Assembly: GCA_019348555.1 (NCBI GenBank)
Contig: JAHWJH010000013.1
Coordinates: forward strand, 1-33,864
Length of the DNA stretch: 33,864 nt
Source: Actinomycetota bacterium
GTDB taxonomy: Bacteria; Actinomycetota; Acidimicrobiia; Acidimicrobiales; CADCSY01
Reading direction: 5' to 3'
Shown here: in pieces, positions 13,035-29,851 of the stretch
Layout: every line of letters begins with the position of its first letter
How positions within the stretch are numbered: the stretch's first letter is position 1
Notes under the pieces: generated by a model
Database searches by the model: none
What the model was told of the DNA's origin: nothing
Seen by the model: the letters and a program-made list of their open reading frames with translations, nothing else
Program-made: the position numbers and the translations under genes

Positions 13035-14855
13035 TCAGGCCCTCGGCGGTCGGCCGGGAAGGCCGAGCTCCCGCTCCCGAGCCGCCAGGGTGTCGAGGCG
13101 CCATGCGGCATTGATGAGGCCCACGTGCGAGAACGCCTGGGGGAAGTTCCCCAACAGCTCGCCGGTGTCCGAATCGATCTGCTCGGAGAAGAGTCCGAGG
13201 TCGTTGGCTCGGGCAGTCACCTGGTCGAACAACGAAGCGGCACGGCCCAGTCGGCCGGCCAGAGCGAGGCACTCGACGAGCCAGTAGGTGCAGAGGACGA
13301 AGCCGTTGGTGTCGCCTTCCCAGCGATAGACCAGGCCATCGCGGACGAGCTGGCGTTCAATGGCCCCGATCGTGGAGACCATCCGCTCGTCGTCAGCCGG
13401 CATGAAGCCGACCAGCGGCAAAAGGAGCACCGACGCATCCAGCTGATCGGAGCCCAAGGCGCCGGTGAAGGCACCCACGGTGTCGTTCCAGCCCTCTCGC
13501 AGCACGGTGTCACGGATCTCGTCCCTCGTCTCGGCCCAGCGATGTGCGTCCGAACCTTCGCCGAGATGGGGCGCGAGCCGCGCAGCTCGATCGAGGGCCA
13601 CCCAGCACATCACCTTGGACGTGAGGTAGTGGCGCTGATCGTCGCGGGCCTCCCACATGCCAGCGTCAGGGGATTGCCACGTGTCAGCGGCTTCGTTGGC
13701 CAGCCACACCAGGAGCTGCTTGACGCGATCGTCAAGGGGAGCGAGCTGGTCGATGAAGCGGTGTGCCATGTCCAGCACCTCCCCCATCACGTCGAGCTGC
13801 GCTTGGTCCCACGCGGCGTTGCCCACCCGCACCGGCTTGCTATCACGGAAGCCGGAGAGGTGGTCGAGCTCGTGCTCGGAGACGTCGCGGCGGCCGTCGA
13901 CGCCGTACATGATCTGCACGCGGCGACCGTGCGCTGGCTTTCCGGCGGCGCGGGCTATGAACCGGAGGTACTCGTCGGCTTCGTCGGGGCATGCGGCGAT
14001 CCACAGTGCTTGGGCGGTGAGGCTGAGATCCCTCAGCCAGACGTACCGGTAGTCCCAGTTTGCGCTGCTGCCTATGGCGGCTGGGAGCGACGTGGTAGCC
14101 GCAGCCAGCACGGCACCGGTGGGCTTGAAGGTGAGACCCTGGAGCACGAGGGCACTGGTGCGAGCCAACTGGGCGCGAGGACCGTCGTACCCGGGATGAG
14201 CGGCCGCCCACGACGCCCACGCCTGCTCGGCGTTGGCCAGCGCGTCGTCGATGTCGGGGTCGTCGAAGGGCCGCTCGTCGTGTGTCGTGGCGTGCGCGAC
14301 CGAGAAGGAGAAGCGGCTCCCGGCGGCAACCTCGAAGACACCGGTCGCCGCCGCATCGCGCTCCTCCAGTGCTACGGGTGAGCGCAGCCGTAGGGCCGTC
14401 GGGCCAGCCTCGGCGATCACGGCCCCGTCGTCGCGCCGCAAGTGTGGGGTGGTCAGACCGAACTCGAAGCGCGGCGCGAACTCACAGCGGACCCGGACCC
14501 TGCCCCGGATTCCCTCGATGGACCGAAGCAGTACGTGGGGCGAGCGCCGACCGACCTCGTGCCCGCGGGCGTCGGCCTCCATGGCGAGGGCGTCACGAAG
14601 CCGTATCTCGCCGGTGGTGGTGGTAATCGATGACTCCACCACCAAGCTCTCGGGCAGGTACCGCCGGCGGATCTCACGTTCATGCTCGACCTCGAGGCCC
14701 CAGTGGCCCCCGTTGGGGTCGAGCAACCCGGCGAAGACCGGTGGTTGATCGGCTCGAGGGGGGCACCACCAGTCGACCGACCCGTTCCTCGAGACCAAGG
14801 CCGGCGCGTGCCCATCGGAAAGGAACGCGTAGTCGTCGATGCGCACGGAGTTCAT
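13035..14855 (-). CDS. Glycoside hydrolase family 15 protein (glucoamylase/trehalase-like), copy 1
   Basis: MNSVRIDDYAFLSDGHAPALVSRNGSVDWWCPPRADQPPVFAGLLD; ANWDYRYVWLRDLSLTAQAL; FVLCTYWLVECLALAGR. Confidence 0.88.
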   Translation of the reverse strand: MNSVRIDDYAFLSDGHAPALVSRNGSVDWWCPPRADQPPVFAGLLDPNGGHWGLEVEHEREIRRRYLPESLVVESSITTTTGEIRLRDALAMEADARGHEVGRRSPHVLLRSIEGIRGRVRVRCEFAPRFEFGLTTPHLRRDDGAVIAEAGPTALRLRSPVALEERDAAATGVFEVAAGSRFSFSVAHATTHDERPFDDPDIDDALANAEQAWASWAAAHPGYDGPRAQLARTSALVLQGLTFKPTGAVLAAATTSLPAAIGSSANWDYRYVWLRDLSLTAQALWIAACPDEADEYLRFIARAAGKPAHGRRVQIMYGVDGRRDVSEHELDHLSGFRDSKPVRVGNAAWDQAQLDVMGEVLDMAHRFIDQLAPLDDRVKQLLVWLANEAADTWQSPDAGMWEARDDQRHYLTSKVMCWVALDRAARLAPHLGEGSDAHRWAETRDEIRDTVLREGWNDTVGAFTGALGSDQLDASVLLLPLVGFMPADDERMVSTIGAIERQLVRDGLVYRWEGDTNGFVLCTYWLVECLALAGRLGRAASLFDQVTARANDLGLFSEQIDSDTGELLGNFPQAFSHVGLINAAWRLDTLAARERELGLPGRPPRA

Positions 14856-14928: not shown

Positions 14929-15516
14929 TCACCGGTCGAGCAGGCGCTCGATCGCGAGCCTCGCCTCCGGTAGGACCTGGGGCACCATGGCCACGCTGGC
15001 GATGCTGGCCGCCAGGCACCACGAGCACAACTTGCGGTGCTTACTGACCTGCTCCGCCGTCAGGTAGAGCCCACCGGCCGCATCCAGAGCCACCTTCGCT
15101 GCCATCAGCAGCGGCAGCGCCGGCGTTTCCTGGTGGCGTCGGCTCGAGCCCATCCCCGCCAATGCCAACGTGACGCCGTAGCTGACGAGTCCGAGCGCGG
15201 CATCAGGCGTCCGGAACAGCGCGTACGCCTCGCCGGAGGCGTCAACTGCCTCCGCATCGAAGATGCCGACGCGTGGCTCGGGCAGGCGGCGGATCAGGCC
15301 GTTCTGGTAGGCGGCGACCGCACCCATAGCCGCCGACGCGACCAGCGAGAGCGCCGCAACCCGCCGTCGTCTGTCCAGCAAGTCTCCCGAATGCCGCCGC
15401 AGATCGTCGCTCACCTTTTCACCCGTGCGTGATGCCGGGCGTCCGATCCCGCCGGGGCGCCCCCCGACCTCGGATGCCTGCGGCCCAGCGGGTCGGCCGC
15501 GCAGTGCGTCTGTCAT
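14929..15516 (-). CDS. Vitamin K epoxide reductase (VKOR)-family membrane protein
   Basis: GLIRRLPEPRVGIFDAEAVDASGEAYALFRTPDAALGLVSYGVTLALAGMG...LTAEQVSKHRKLCSWCLAAS: CxxC and membrane helices. Confidence 0.72.
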   Translation of the reverse strand: MTDALRGRPAGPQASEVGGRPGGIGRPASRTGEKVSDDLRRHSGDLLDRRRRVAALSLVASAAMGAVAAYQNGLIRRLPEPRVGIFDAEAVDASGEAYALFRTPDAALGLVSYGVTLALAGMGSSRRHQETPALPLLMAAKVALDAAGGLYLTAEQVSKHRKLCSWCLAASIASVAMVPQVLPEARLAIERLLDR

Positions 15517-15571: not shown

Positions 15572-16048
15572 CTAGTCCCACCATCCGAGCGCCCACTCCC
15601 CCTCACCGGGTTCGCCGGCGGCGCGGCGGAACGTTTCCATGCAGCGCACGAGCTCCCGGCGCTCCGACGTGCTCATCTGGGCCACGATGGCCCCGAGCTC
15701 CTTCCTTCGAGCGTCGGTGATCTTGCGAACGAGCCCCACCCCGGCTCTGGTCAGCCGGAGCGACACCCCACGGTCGGCTGGGTCTCGCCGAACCAGTCCC
15801 TTTTCGATCAGGCGATCACACATGCGCGTGGCGGTGGAGGGGTGCACCCCGAGCGCGCCGGCCAGACCGACCAGGCTCTGCGGTCCCAGCTGACCCAGCG
15901 TTGCCAGCGCTCGGCATTGTGGGAGCGTCACGTCGTGTGCCGTGGCCGACAGCGAGCGGGTCGAGATGGCCACGAGGACGCGGGACCCCGCGACCACCGC
16001 GTCGAGCACCCGGTCGAGGTCGGGGTCACCTCCGAGTCGTCCGGTCAC
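15572..16048 (-). CDS. MarR-family transcriptional regulator
   Basis: LPQCRALATLGQLGPQSLVGLAGALGVHPSTATRMCDRLIEKGLVRRDPADRGVSLRLT. GTG 16048 is preferred over 16108 because the putative operator lies just upstream of it. Confidence 0.9.
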   Translation of the reverse strand: MTGRLGGDPDLDRVLDAVVAGSRVLVAISTRSLSATAHDVTLPQCRALATLGQLGPQSLVGLAGALGVHPSTATRMCDRLIEKGLVRRDPADRGVSLRLTRAGVGLVRKITDARRKELGAIVAQMSTSERRELVRCMETFRRAAGEPGEGEWALGWWD

Positions 16049-16068
16049 GGTCCGATTCTGCCCAGGCT

Positions 16069-16081
16069 TTGCACTGTGCAC
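16069..16081. promoter_or_regulatory. Putative MarR auto-operator upstream of marR
   Basis: TTGCA-ctg-TGCAC; same arms and spacing as the 15552 site, one arm mismatch. Confidence 0.6.
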
Positions 16082-16262
16082 CAGGGGTCGGATCGACTCG
16101 AGCGTCACAGCAGACGGACGAGGAGACTCGGAAGTCGACGGGTGAAAGTGCCGGTTCGGGACCGGTGACCAGACGGTGACGAGCGGCGACAGGTGCGTTA
16201 CTCGGGCTGGGAAACGCCTTGTCGTATTGACCTCTTACCACGGCCTAGAAGGAGAGGAGCGC

Positions 16263-26998: not shown

Positions 26999-28807
26999 TC
27001 ATCGTCTTCCATGGCGGGGCCACCGCAGACGCACGTACCGCACGATCCGCCATGCCAACAGCACCGGGGTGCCAAAACGGGCCCGCAGGGCAGCCGCGTC
27101 CAGTACGTACATGGCACGGGCGGCCTCGGCATGGGACCACACCAGTGGGACGTTGCCCAGGCTCTCACCGGTCTCGGGATCGAGCTCCTCGGACAGGAGG
27201 CGAGGAAGCCGGGCGCACAGTTCGTCGGCCCGAGCGCGCGCTTCATCGAGACGGCCCACGGTGGCGAGGGCGGACACCGCCCACCAGCACACTGGCAGGA
27301 ACACCCCCTCCTTGCCGCTGAAACCGTCGTCGCCGCCCGGCTGGTAGCGGTACAGGAACGGTCCAGTACCAAGGCGGTCGATGGTGGCCTGCACGAGCCG
27401 ATCGGCGCGCGGGTCCCGGCGCGAAAGCATCCCGAAGACCACCGCCATGAGCGCCGAGGCGTCGGGGCCGGGAGCACCGTCGTAGGCCTGCGGGAGGCCG
27501 CCGTCCCCGTCGATGGCGCCGAGGACTCGCTGGCGGATCGCCTGGCGGGCCCGCTTCCAGTGACGGCGACGGGCACGGGGCCGCCAGCCGCGGGCGATCC
27601 AGATGGCGCGGTCGAGACAGATCCAGCGCCCGATGTCGGCGCTGAGCAGGTCCCGAGGCTCGCGGAGCTCCCAGATCCCGCTGGTGGGCGCCGGCGTCGC
27701 CGAGGCCGCCTGATCGGCGGCCGCCCGCACCAGACGCCACGTGTCGTCATCGAGGCTGGCTCCGGTCTGCAGGTGCACGGAGATGCCCTCGAGAAGCAGT
27801 CCGAGGGCGTCGTGTTGCACCTGGGCCCCCGCATCGTTGCCCACCCGGATCGGCCGGGAGCCGGCCCATCCGGACACGCCCTGCACCTCGCGCTCGTCGG
27901 GGACCGGACGTCCACGGACGTCGGTTACCGGACTGGTGGGCGCCTCGCCGCCGTCGTTCAGGCCCACCACGAAGCGCAGGTACCGCTCCGCCCCCGAGGG
28001 GTTGCCGAGGAGGGCAGCGACGGAGATGCCCAGGGAGGCGTCGCGCAGCCAGCTGTAGCGGTAGTCGAACTGGCGGTCGGCGCCGGGCGCCTCGGGCAGC
28101 GACGTGGTCGGGGCGGCCACCACCGACCCCGTTGCCCGGTAGGTGCAGGCCTCCAGCACCGCCAGAGCGTCGGCCGCCCGCTCCGGGTGGTGGCGGGGCA
28201 GCCTGGTCCGCTCCAGCACGGACCTGCTGTCAGCCTCGACGGTGCTGAGGCGCCCGGCGAGGCGCTCGCCGTCGGGGTCGCTGAGCGCCACGTCGAGCCC
28301 GATGACCAGCGCCGCCCAGCTGCCCCTGGGGGCACGAAGGATGGTCGTGAGCGATCGCCCCGTGGCCTGCGACATCCCACCGGCGACGGTGACCACTGCG
28401 CTGTCGAGGAGACACTTCGGACCATCCCATGTTCCCCACGCCTGGTCGAAGCCACCGAGGGCCAGCTCATGGGTCACCTCCAGGTCGGCGTCGTTGGCTC
28501 GAACGAGGCGCACGAGCCCCTCCTCCACCAGCCCATCGCAGCACTCGATGTGAACGCCGTGGACGCGAATCACCGTACGGACCACCGAACCGGCGGGTTC
28601 GGCCGAGCGCTGCATCTCCTCTGCGCCCCGCCAGCGCGCAGCGGCGCCGGCCGCATCGAGCAGCGACCACAGTAACGGTGGCGAGTCGATCTCGGGCCCG
28701 CACCACCAGTCGACCTCGGCCGCGGGACCGATGAGGGCTGCGGAGCGCCCGTTGCTGATCAGGCGGTGCGCTGCCAGCGCAGGCCGGTGCAGAGCCGGGT
28801 CAGTCAG
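26999..28807 (-). CDS. Glycoside hydrolase family 15 protein, copy 2; non-canonical or uncertain start
   Basis: FDYRYSWLRDASLGISVAAL; GVFLPVCWWAVSALATVGR. The conserved N-terminus LISNGRSAALIGPAAEVDWWCGPEIDSPPLLWSLLD is encoded upstream of ATG 28615 in the same open frame. Confidence 0.8.
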   Translation of the reverse strand: MTDPALHRPALAAHRLISNGRSAALIGPAAEVDWWCGPEIDSPPLLWSLLDAAGAAARWRGAEEMQRSAEPAGSVVRTVIRVHGVHIECCDGLVEEGLVRLVRANDADLEVTHELALGGFDQAWGTWDGPKCLLDSAVVTVAGGMSQATGRSLTTILRAPRGSWAALVIGLDVALSDPDGERLAGRLSTVEADSRSVLERTRLPRHHPERAADALAVLEACTYRATGSVVAAPTTSLPEAPGADRQFDYRYSWLRDASLGISVAALLGNPSGAERYLRFVVGLNDGGEAPTSPVTDVRGRPVPDEREVQGVSGWAGSRPIRVGNDAGAQVQHDALGLLLEGISVHLQTGASLDDDTWRLVRAAADQAASATPAPTSGIWELREPRDLLSADIGRWICLDRAIWIARGWRPRARRRHWKRARQAIRQRVLGAIDGDGGLPQAYDGAPGPDASALMAVVFGMLSRRDPRADRLVQATIDRLGTGPFLYRYQPGGDDGFSGKEGVFLPVCWWAVSALATVGRLDEARARADELCARLPRLLSEELDPETGESLGNVPLVWSHAEAARAMYVLDAAALRARFGTPVLLAWRIVRYVRLRWPRHGRR

Positions 28808-28990
28808 GACCTACGGCCCCGGGCCTCGTGCAGGCCGTGCGGGCCTCCGGTACGACGTGGGGCACCATCGCCGCAGTCAACGCCGCCGCCAGCAGTCACT
28901 ACGAGGAGAACCGGCGGTGTTCGGAGCCCTGCTCCACGGTGATCCGCTGGACATCTCACCTCCCCTTCCCGCCGGCGGCGATGCCGCAAG
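28800..28990 (-). pseudogene. Decayed 3' fragment of a VKOR-family gene (paralog of 14929..15516)
   Basis: Conceptual frame EQGSEHRRFSS**LLAAALTAAMVPHVVPEARTA aligns to EQVSKHRKLCSWCLAASIASVAMVPQVLPEARLA; shared ATGGTGCCCCA(G/C)GTC(C/G)TACCGGAGGC. Confidence 0.8.
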
Positions 28991-29049
28991 TTAGCAACGT
29001 CGGGTGCTGGCTGACGGGGCGTCCGGCTGGCTTGGGCCCGGACCTCGCG

Positions 29050-29529
29050 TCAGTGCATGCGACGCAGGATAGGAAGCGCGAGCCACAGGGTGACGGCCAA
29101 GAGGAGCACGGCCAGGGTCACCGTGATGGCGACGACGCCAGGAAACAGCAGGTCGCTCACCAGGAACACCACCGCGACGAGGGCGACGACCAGGCAGATG
29201 ATGCCGGCGACGGCCTCGTGGCTGGCGGTCCGGATCAGCAGACGTTTGTCGTAGGGCTTGCCCCGGAGGCGGTGGTACGCGCTCTCTCCAACGAGACACA
29301 CCAGGGCCAGCGCCGAGGCGACGAACGCCACGAAGTACACCACACGGTCGAGGTCGCGCAGCTCCGGGAACCGGCTCGAGAACGGAACCGTGAGGAGAAA
29401 GGCCAACAACACCGCCACTCCGGGCAAGAGCACCCTCAACTCGCTGAGGACCTCGTCCAGTTCCCGGTCGAAGTCCTCCTCGGAAGTGGGCTTACCCCGG
29501 TACCCGGGGCTGGCGGGGTCCTGGCTCAT
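29050..29529 (-). CDS. DUF6328-like membrane protein
   Basis: LDEVLSELRVLLPGVAVLLAFLLTVPFSSRFPELRDLDRVVYFVAFVASALAL...GESAYHRLRGK. Confidence 0.8.
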   Translation of the reverse strand: MSQDPASPGYRGKPTSEEDFDRELDEVLSELRVLLPGVAVLLAFLLTVPFSSRFPELRDLDRVVYFVAFVASALALVCLVGESAYHRLRGKPYDKRLLIRTASHEAVAGIICLVVALVAVVFLVSDLLFPGVVAITVTLAVLLLAVTLWLALPILRRMH

Positions 29530-29851
29530 GGTCGCCTCCGGGGCTGGCGAGAAGAGAGTCTCCGGTGGCGACGTGACGTACGCCGCGGTGGTTGTTGCCG
29601 GCGACTCACCGGTTGGTCGCTCCATGGGTTTCGCTGGTCGTCGGGCCGAAGGCAACCGCCGAGTCGCTCGGTCAAGTTCAGCGCTCGCTGCGCAGGATAG
29701 AGACATCCGGTGACGGGTACGAAAACCGCCGAACCGGTCCGCCGTGCCGGGCGTTTCCTAACCCGACGTCTAGAGGAAGTGAAGCCATGGCCAGCCTCCT
29801 ACGTCCTCACGAAGTATCAGCCCTCAGCCTCCTCCCGGACCGGTAACGGTC

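Follow-up and report, generated by a model that had tools for sequence, protein, structure and literature searches.

A recent VKOR pseudogene remnant beside an intact GH15 gene in an Acidimicrobiales genome, probably derived from a horizontally acquired gene pair

The window analyzed here, a 33,864-nt stretch of contig JAHWJH010000013.1 from a genome of the order Acidimicrobiales, carries at positions 28804-28943 the real and recently formed pseudogene remnant of a VKOR-family gene, in kind a case of ordinary gene decay. It lies directly upstream of an intact gene for a glycoside hydrolase of family 15 (GH15 copy 2, or GH15-2). The account that we favor, with a probability of roughly 85%, is that horizontal transfer brought in a VKOR-GH15 pair like that of a relative termed G244, after which the incoming VKOR decayed and the resident VKOR was kept. 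The genome itself is a fragmented MAG of 283 contigs with 5.6% contamination. The features of the window that bear on this account are as follows.

13035-14855, minus strand: GH15 copy 1, 606 aa, beside the resident VKOR (Pfam GH15, E=5e-68)
14929-15516, minus strand: intact resident VKOR-like gene, 195 aa (Pfam VKOR, E=9e-14), four hydrophobic segments
15572-16108, minus strand: gene for a MarR-type regulator, preceding the resident VKOR (Pfam, E=9e-13)
26999-28807, minus strand: GH15 copy 2, intact, 602 aa (Pfam GH15, E=4e-34; TREH_N, 3e-5)
28804-28943, minus strand: C-terminal VKOR-family remnant, about 46 of about 190 codons, the last quarter (tblastn and profile E-values 4e-5 to 8e-11)
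28896-28901, minus strand: TAG (28901-28899) and TGA (28898-28896) at the Trp and second Cys of CSWC, by direct reading
28944-29049, minus strand: unrelated stretch separating the DUF6328 gene from the remnant, with no homology to the 5' parts of relatives' VKOR genes
29050-29706, minus strand: DUF6328 protein gene, upstream of the remnant (Pfam, E=2e-33)

The remnant, its lesions and the timing of decay

The original prediction placed a decayed VKOR C-terminus upstream of GH15-2, and this has been borne out. Translation of the minus strand from 28943 to 28824 aligns without gaps to the C-terminus of the resident VKOR (50% identity over 40 aa), a match that tblastn reports at E=4e-5 within the window and at 7e-5 in the whole 2.76-Mb genome. 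A search of the same 2.76 Mb with a profile of 11 intact VKOR-like proteins recovers the remnant at E=7.8e-11. With the G244 VKOR as query, 28 of 37 residues match (E=5e-9); the match to VKOR is far beyond chance. At the DNA level, identity to the intact VKOR of the window was measured at 67% across 98 nt, close to an earlier hand estimate of 60-65% over about 100 nt. A search of viral contigs found no relatives, and one of solved structures returned a single hit, to a designed protein, which was spurious and due to repeats, and none for GH15-2.

The damage can be read directly from the DNA. The active-site motif, said to have changed from CSWC to Ser-Ser-stop-stop, does read TCC TCG TAG TGA, with TCC at 28907-28905 in place of the first cysteine and the two stops in place of the tryptophan and the second cysteine; the CXXC is thus absent and both cysteines are lost. 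Two lesions had gone unmentioned: a 1-nt indel, seen against the G244 DNA, that shifts the frame some 30 nt upstream of the former VKOR stop codon (TGA, 28806-28804), and the absence of the first ~150 codons. Homology starts sharply at 28943, from about codon 154, leaving the four-helix VKOR domain incomplete. Set against the intact G244 orthologue at the same place, the lesions of the pseudogene are therefore 5' loss, two stops and a frameshift.

Position ~28943 is a deletion or rearrangement junction, and the DUF6328 gene upstream of it had no match in the regions around relatives' VKOR-GH15 pairs. Just before the junction lie a Shine-Dalgarno-like stretch and an ATG (28954-28952; 28952-28960 together). 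These could be what is left of the start of that VKOR, in which case the loss would have been an internal deletion.

Constraint on the VKOR was lost late. Over 37 codons the remnant differs from G244 at 4, 4 and 18 first, second and third codon positions, which are few sites, and this pattern is still like that of a constrained gene; the corresponding counts for GH15-2 are 94, 78 and 252 over 589 codons. Because most of the divergence of the remnant seems to have accumulated before selection on the VKOR ceased, its decay is best read as recent, and the same 4/4/18 pattern contradicts the view of the event as old.

It is barely credible that the fragment still functions, whether as a short peptide, as a leader of GH15-2 or as a protein recoded by selenocysteine or stop readthrough. 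Such a role would suit the TGA at a cysteine position, the Shine-Dalgarno-like stretch and ATG ahead of the remnant, and the presence of GH15-2 immediately downstream. That ATG, however, is out of frame and leads into a 25-codon ORF, and with a TAG next to the TGA, the first cysteine gone, a frameshift and 150 N-terminal codons missing, there is no VKOR left to rescue. Selenocysteine recoding was rejected on three of these grounds, the TAG, the first cysteine and the N-terminus.

Counterparts in relatives and the start of GH15-2

The closest counterpart is found in G244 (MAG AVDCRST_MAG10), a member of the Acidimicrobiales from a different family than this genome. There an intact VKOR-like gene stands directly before an orthologue of GH15-2 (74% identical), and a continuous DNA alignment with the window from 28942 to 28572 (372 nt, 74%, 1 gap, E=2e-65) spans the last VKOR codons, the VKOR stop, the gap and the GH15 start. 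Pairs with an intact VKOR at the orthologous place are also present in G001, G040, G170 and G144. In all five genomes it is a VKOR, and not some unrelated gene, that precedes GH15-2, which agrees with the original prediction that the GH15 was kept here and the VKOR lost.

Other relatives present a more varied picture. VKOR reading frames are broken in G236, G194 and G020, possibly in part through sequencing errors (one G236 indel sits in a C run), and we give no weight to "recurrent decay" across relatives. GH15-2 occurs without an adjacent VKOR in G002, G008, G011, G028, G148, G272 and JACCUL, and tblastn found no VKOR remnants upstream of it in these seven. A mirror case is seen in G020 (contig C57, locus L056, 7765-8758), where a VKOR with one frameshift is followed by a decayed GH15-2 that has lost ~450 internal codons, so that only residues ~9-33 and ~487-595 remain.

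The junction of the two genes also bears on where GH15-2 begins. A CTG at 28807-28805, in the GH15-2 frame, overlaps the old VKOR stop as CTGA; the same overlap occurs in G244, and GTGA, TTGA or TGATG is found at this place in other relatives. Since relatives carry such overlaps with the preceding gene, translation is likely to start at the CTG at 28807, giving 602 aa. The first ATG of GH15-2 is at 28615, and a start there would remove 64 N-terminal residues and cut the conserved N-terminus, to which the relatives' homology extends. Glutamate is present in both GH15s of the window at two motifs that we take to be catalytic.

Duplication, vertical descent or transfer

VKOR is followed by GH15 on the same strand in both places in the window, as originally described. 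From this it had been proposed that one VKOR-GH15 block is present twice, through an old duplication or a transfer. A within-genome duplication of one block, with later decay of the second VKOR, would account for the shared order and strand and for the VKOR homology, which is real, but we consider it very improbable. The two GH15s are only ~30% identical and fall into distinct subfamilies, and copy 1 is 72% identical to the G008 copy that adjoins a VKOR. The remnant is closer to the G244 VKOR, from another family (28/38 residues), than to the intact VKOR of the window (20/38). With GH15s from such different subfamilies and VKORs of different lineages, there is no duplicated block, and the claim that the block is present twice by old duplication finds no support. 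Both the remnant and GH15-2 have their nearest relatives in G244, not in the other copy in the window, and constraint was lost late; as a recent or within-genus event, duplication is refuted.

Gene trees point the same way. In the VKOR tree the remnant groups with G244 at moderate support (86/66, from only ~40 codons), and the intact window VKOR groups with those of G008 and G011, of its own family (96/92). GH15-2 joins G244 at 100/100, with 74% identity to G244 against 58-60% to its own genus. Core genes behave in the opposite manner: the identity of rpoB is 95-97% with members of its genus and 81.8% with G244, and for a core gene from the same contig the values are 75-77% and 67%. The GH15-2 tree is thus discordant with the core genes. 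A contaminating contig was considered and rejected, as the contig's core gene agrees with the species tree.

Could the same distribution result from vertical descent? In that case the ancestor of the order would have had two VKOR-GH15 pairs, with the G244-type pair surviving only in G244 and this genome, an ancient paralogy followed by many losses. Intact pairs do occur in several families, as this would predict. Even so, such a history is unlikely: it requires every other sampled member of family f1 to have lost the pair, with other GH15-2 lineages taking its place, and it fits poorly with a GH15-2 that is nearer to G244 than to its genus when core genes show the reverse (67-82% against 75-97%). 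Nor does it sit well with a second cross-family match, at 85%, between G001 and G236.

Transfer, for which G244 provides the one close relative, is the most likely of these readings, so that of the proposed "duplication or transfer" the second part stands, through the discordance of gene tree and core genes, and the first does not. Under transfer, a lineage with its own VKOR-like gene (14929-15516) would have acquired a G244-type VKOR-GH15 pair horizontally, presumably in that direction. The first ~150 codons of the incoming VKOR would then have been deleted or replaced at ~28943, two stops would have appeared as both CXXC cysteines disappeared, and a 1-nt indel would have shifted the frame. 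GH15-2 would have survived undamaged, its start probably being the CTG that overlaps the old VKOR stop. The resident VKOR accounts for the tolerance of this loss, though its presence does not itself prove the cause, since several relatives retain GH15-2 with no VKOR adjacent.

The pair from G001 (contig C112, locus L048) and that from G236 (contig C8, locus L083), from two different families, are VKOR-GH15-2 pairs whose GH15s are 85% identical. This is likely to be another transfer, and as a second cross-family case it suggests that the pair moves repeatedly between families. The remnant described here would be a case of such movement.

The VKOR-GH15 neighborhood and known systems

Association of the two genes extends well beyond the window. 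Of 397 genomes sampled from the order, 14 contain GH15-2, 15 a VKOR-like gene and 11 both, against 0.5 expected to have both if relatedness is ignored. A sample drawn from the whole phylum gave 11 VKOR-like loci with sufficient flanking sequence; at 8 of these a GH15 gene, usually one of the copy-1 type, lies no more than ~2.2 kb away. Chance adjacency would be ~1% per locus if a genome is roughly taken to have three GH15 genes in every 2.5 Mb. Loci L099, L100, L101, L103, L104, L105, L108 and L110, from several Actinomycetota families, combine a VKOR-like gene free of loop cysteines with a GH15 that is adjacent or no further than ~2.2 kb off, in either orientation. MarR-type homologues lie divergently beside VKOR in G040 (67% identity) and G011 (53%).

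By these comparisons, both pairings in the window belong to an old, recurrent VKOR-GH15 neighborhood, and because of this the arrangement can be seen twice without duplication. The remnant is in this sense a pointer to an adjacency that, in several Actinomycetota families, is far above chance. The pairing is widespread and apparently undescribed: a literature search for "vitamin K epoxide reductase" together with "glycoside hydrolase family 15" found none, which is weak evidence since coverage of subscription sources was thin. It is possible, if on balance doubtful, that across Actinomycetota the loop-cysteine-free VKOR-like protein and GH15 are functional partners of old standing that move horizontally together, in which VKOR would aid GH15 by an undescribed route, and that here one pair has lost its membrane partner with the resident VKOR serving both. 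The pairing would make testable the role of VKOR-like proteins that lack half of the classical electron relay.

The VKOR family (PF07884) comprises bacterial DsbB-like disulfide-forming enzymes, and the intact protein of the window resembles them over the whole Pfam domain, with four hydrophobic segments and a CXXC in the last. Residues described as fully conserved in the family are Cys43, Cys51, Ser57, Cys132 and Cys135 (human VKORC1 numbering; PMC4555120), in a survey that culled sequences without known conserved residues. The members seen here differ in that the loop cysteine pair is absent from all of them, relatives' proteins included; C164 and C167, of the CSWC at 164-167, are the sole cysteines of the resident VKOR, and the remnant itself is dead. 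Both GH15s of the window match PF00723 and TREH_N (PF19291), like the trehalase/glucoamylase-like enzymes of the family, but the scores of GH15-2 are well short of the NCBIfam cut-offs for archaeal trehalases. As for the remnant, its truncation, stops, frameshift and retained partner gene are those of bacterial pseudogenes in horizontally acquired operons, from which it differs in nothing essential.
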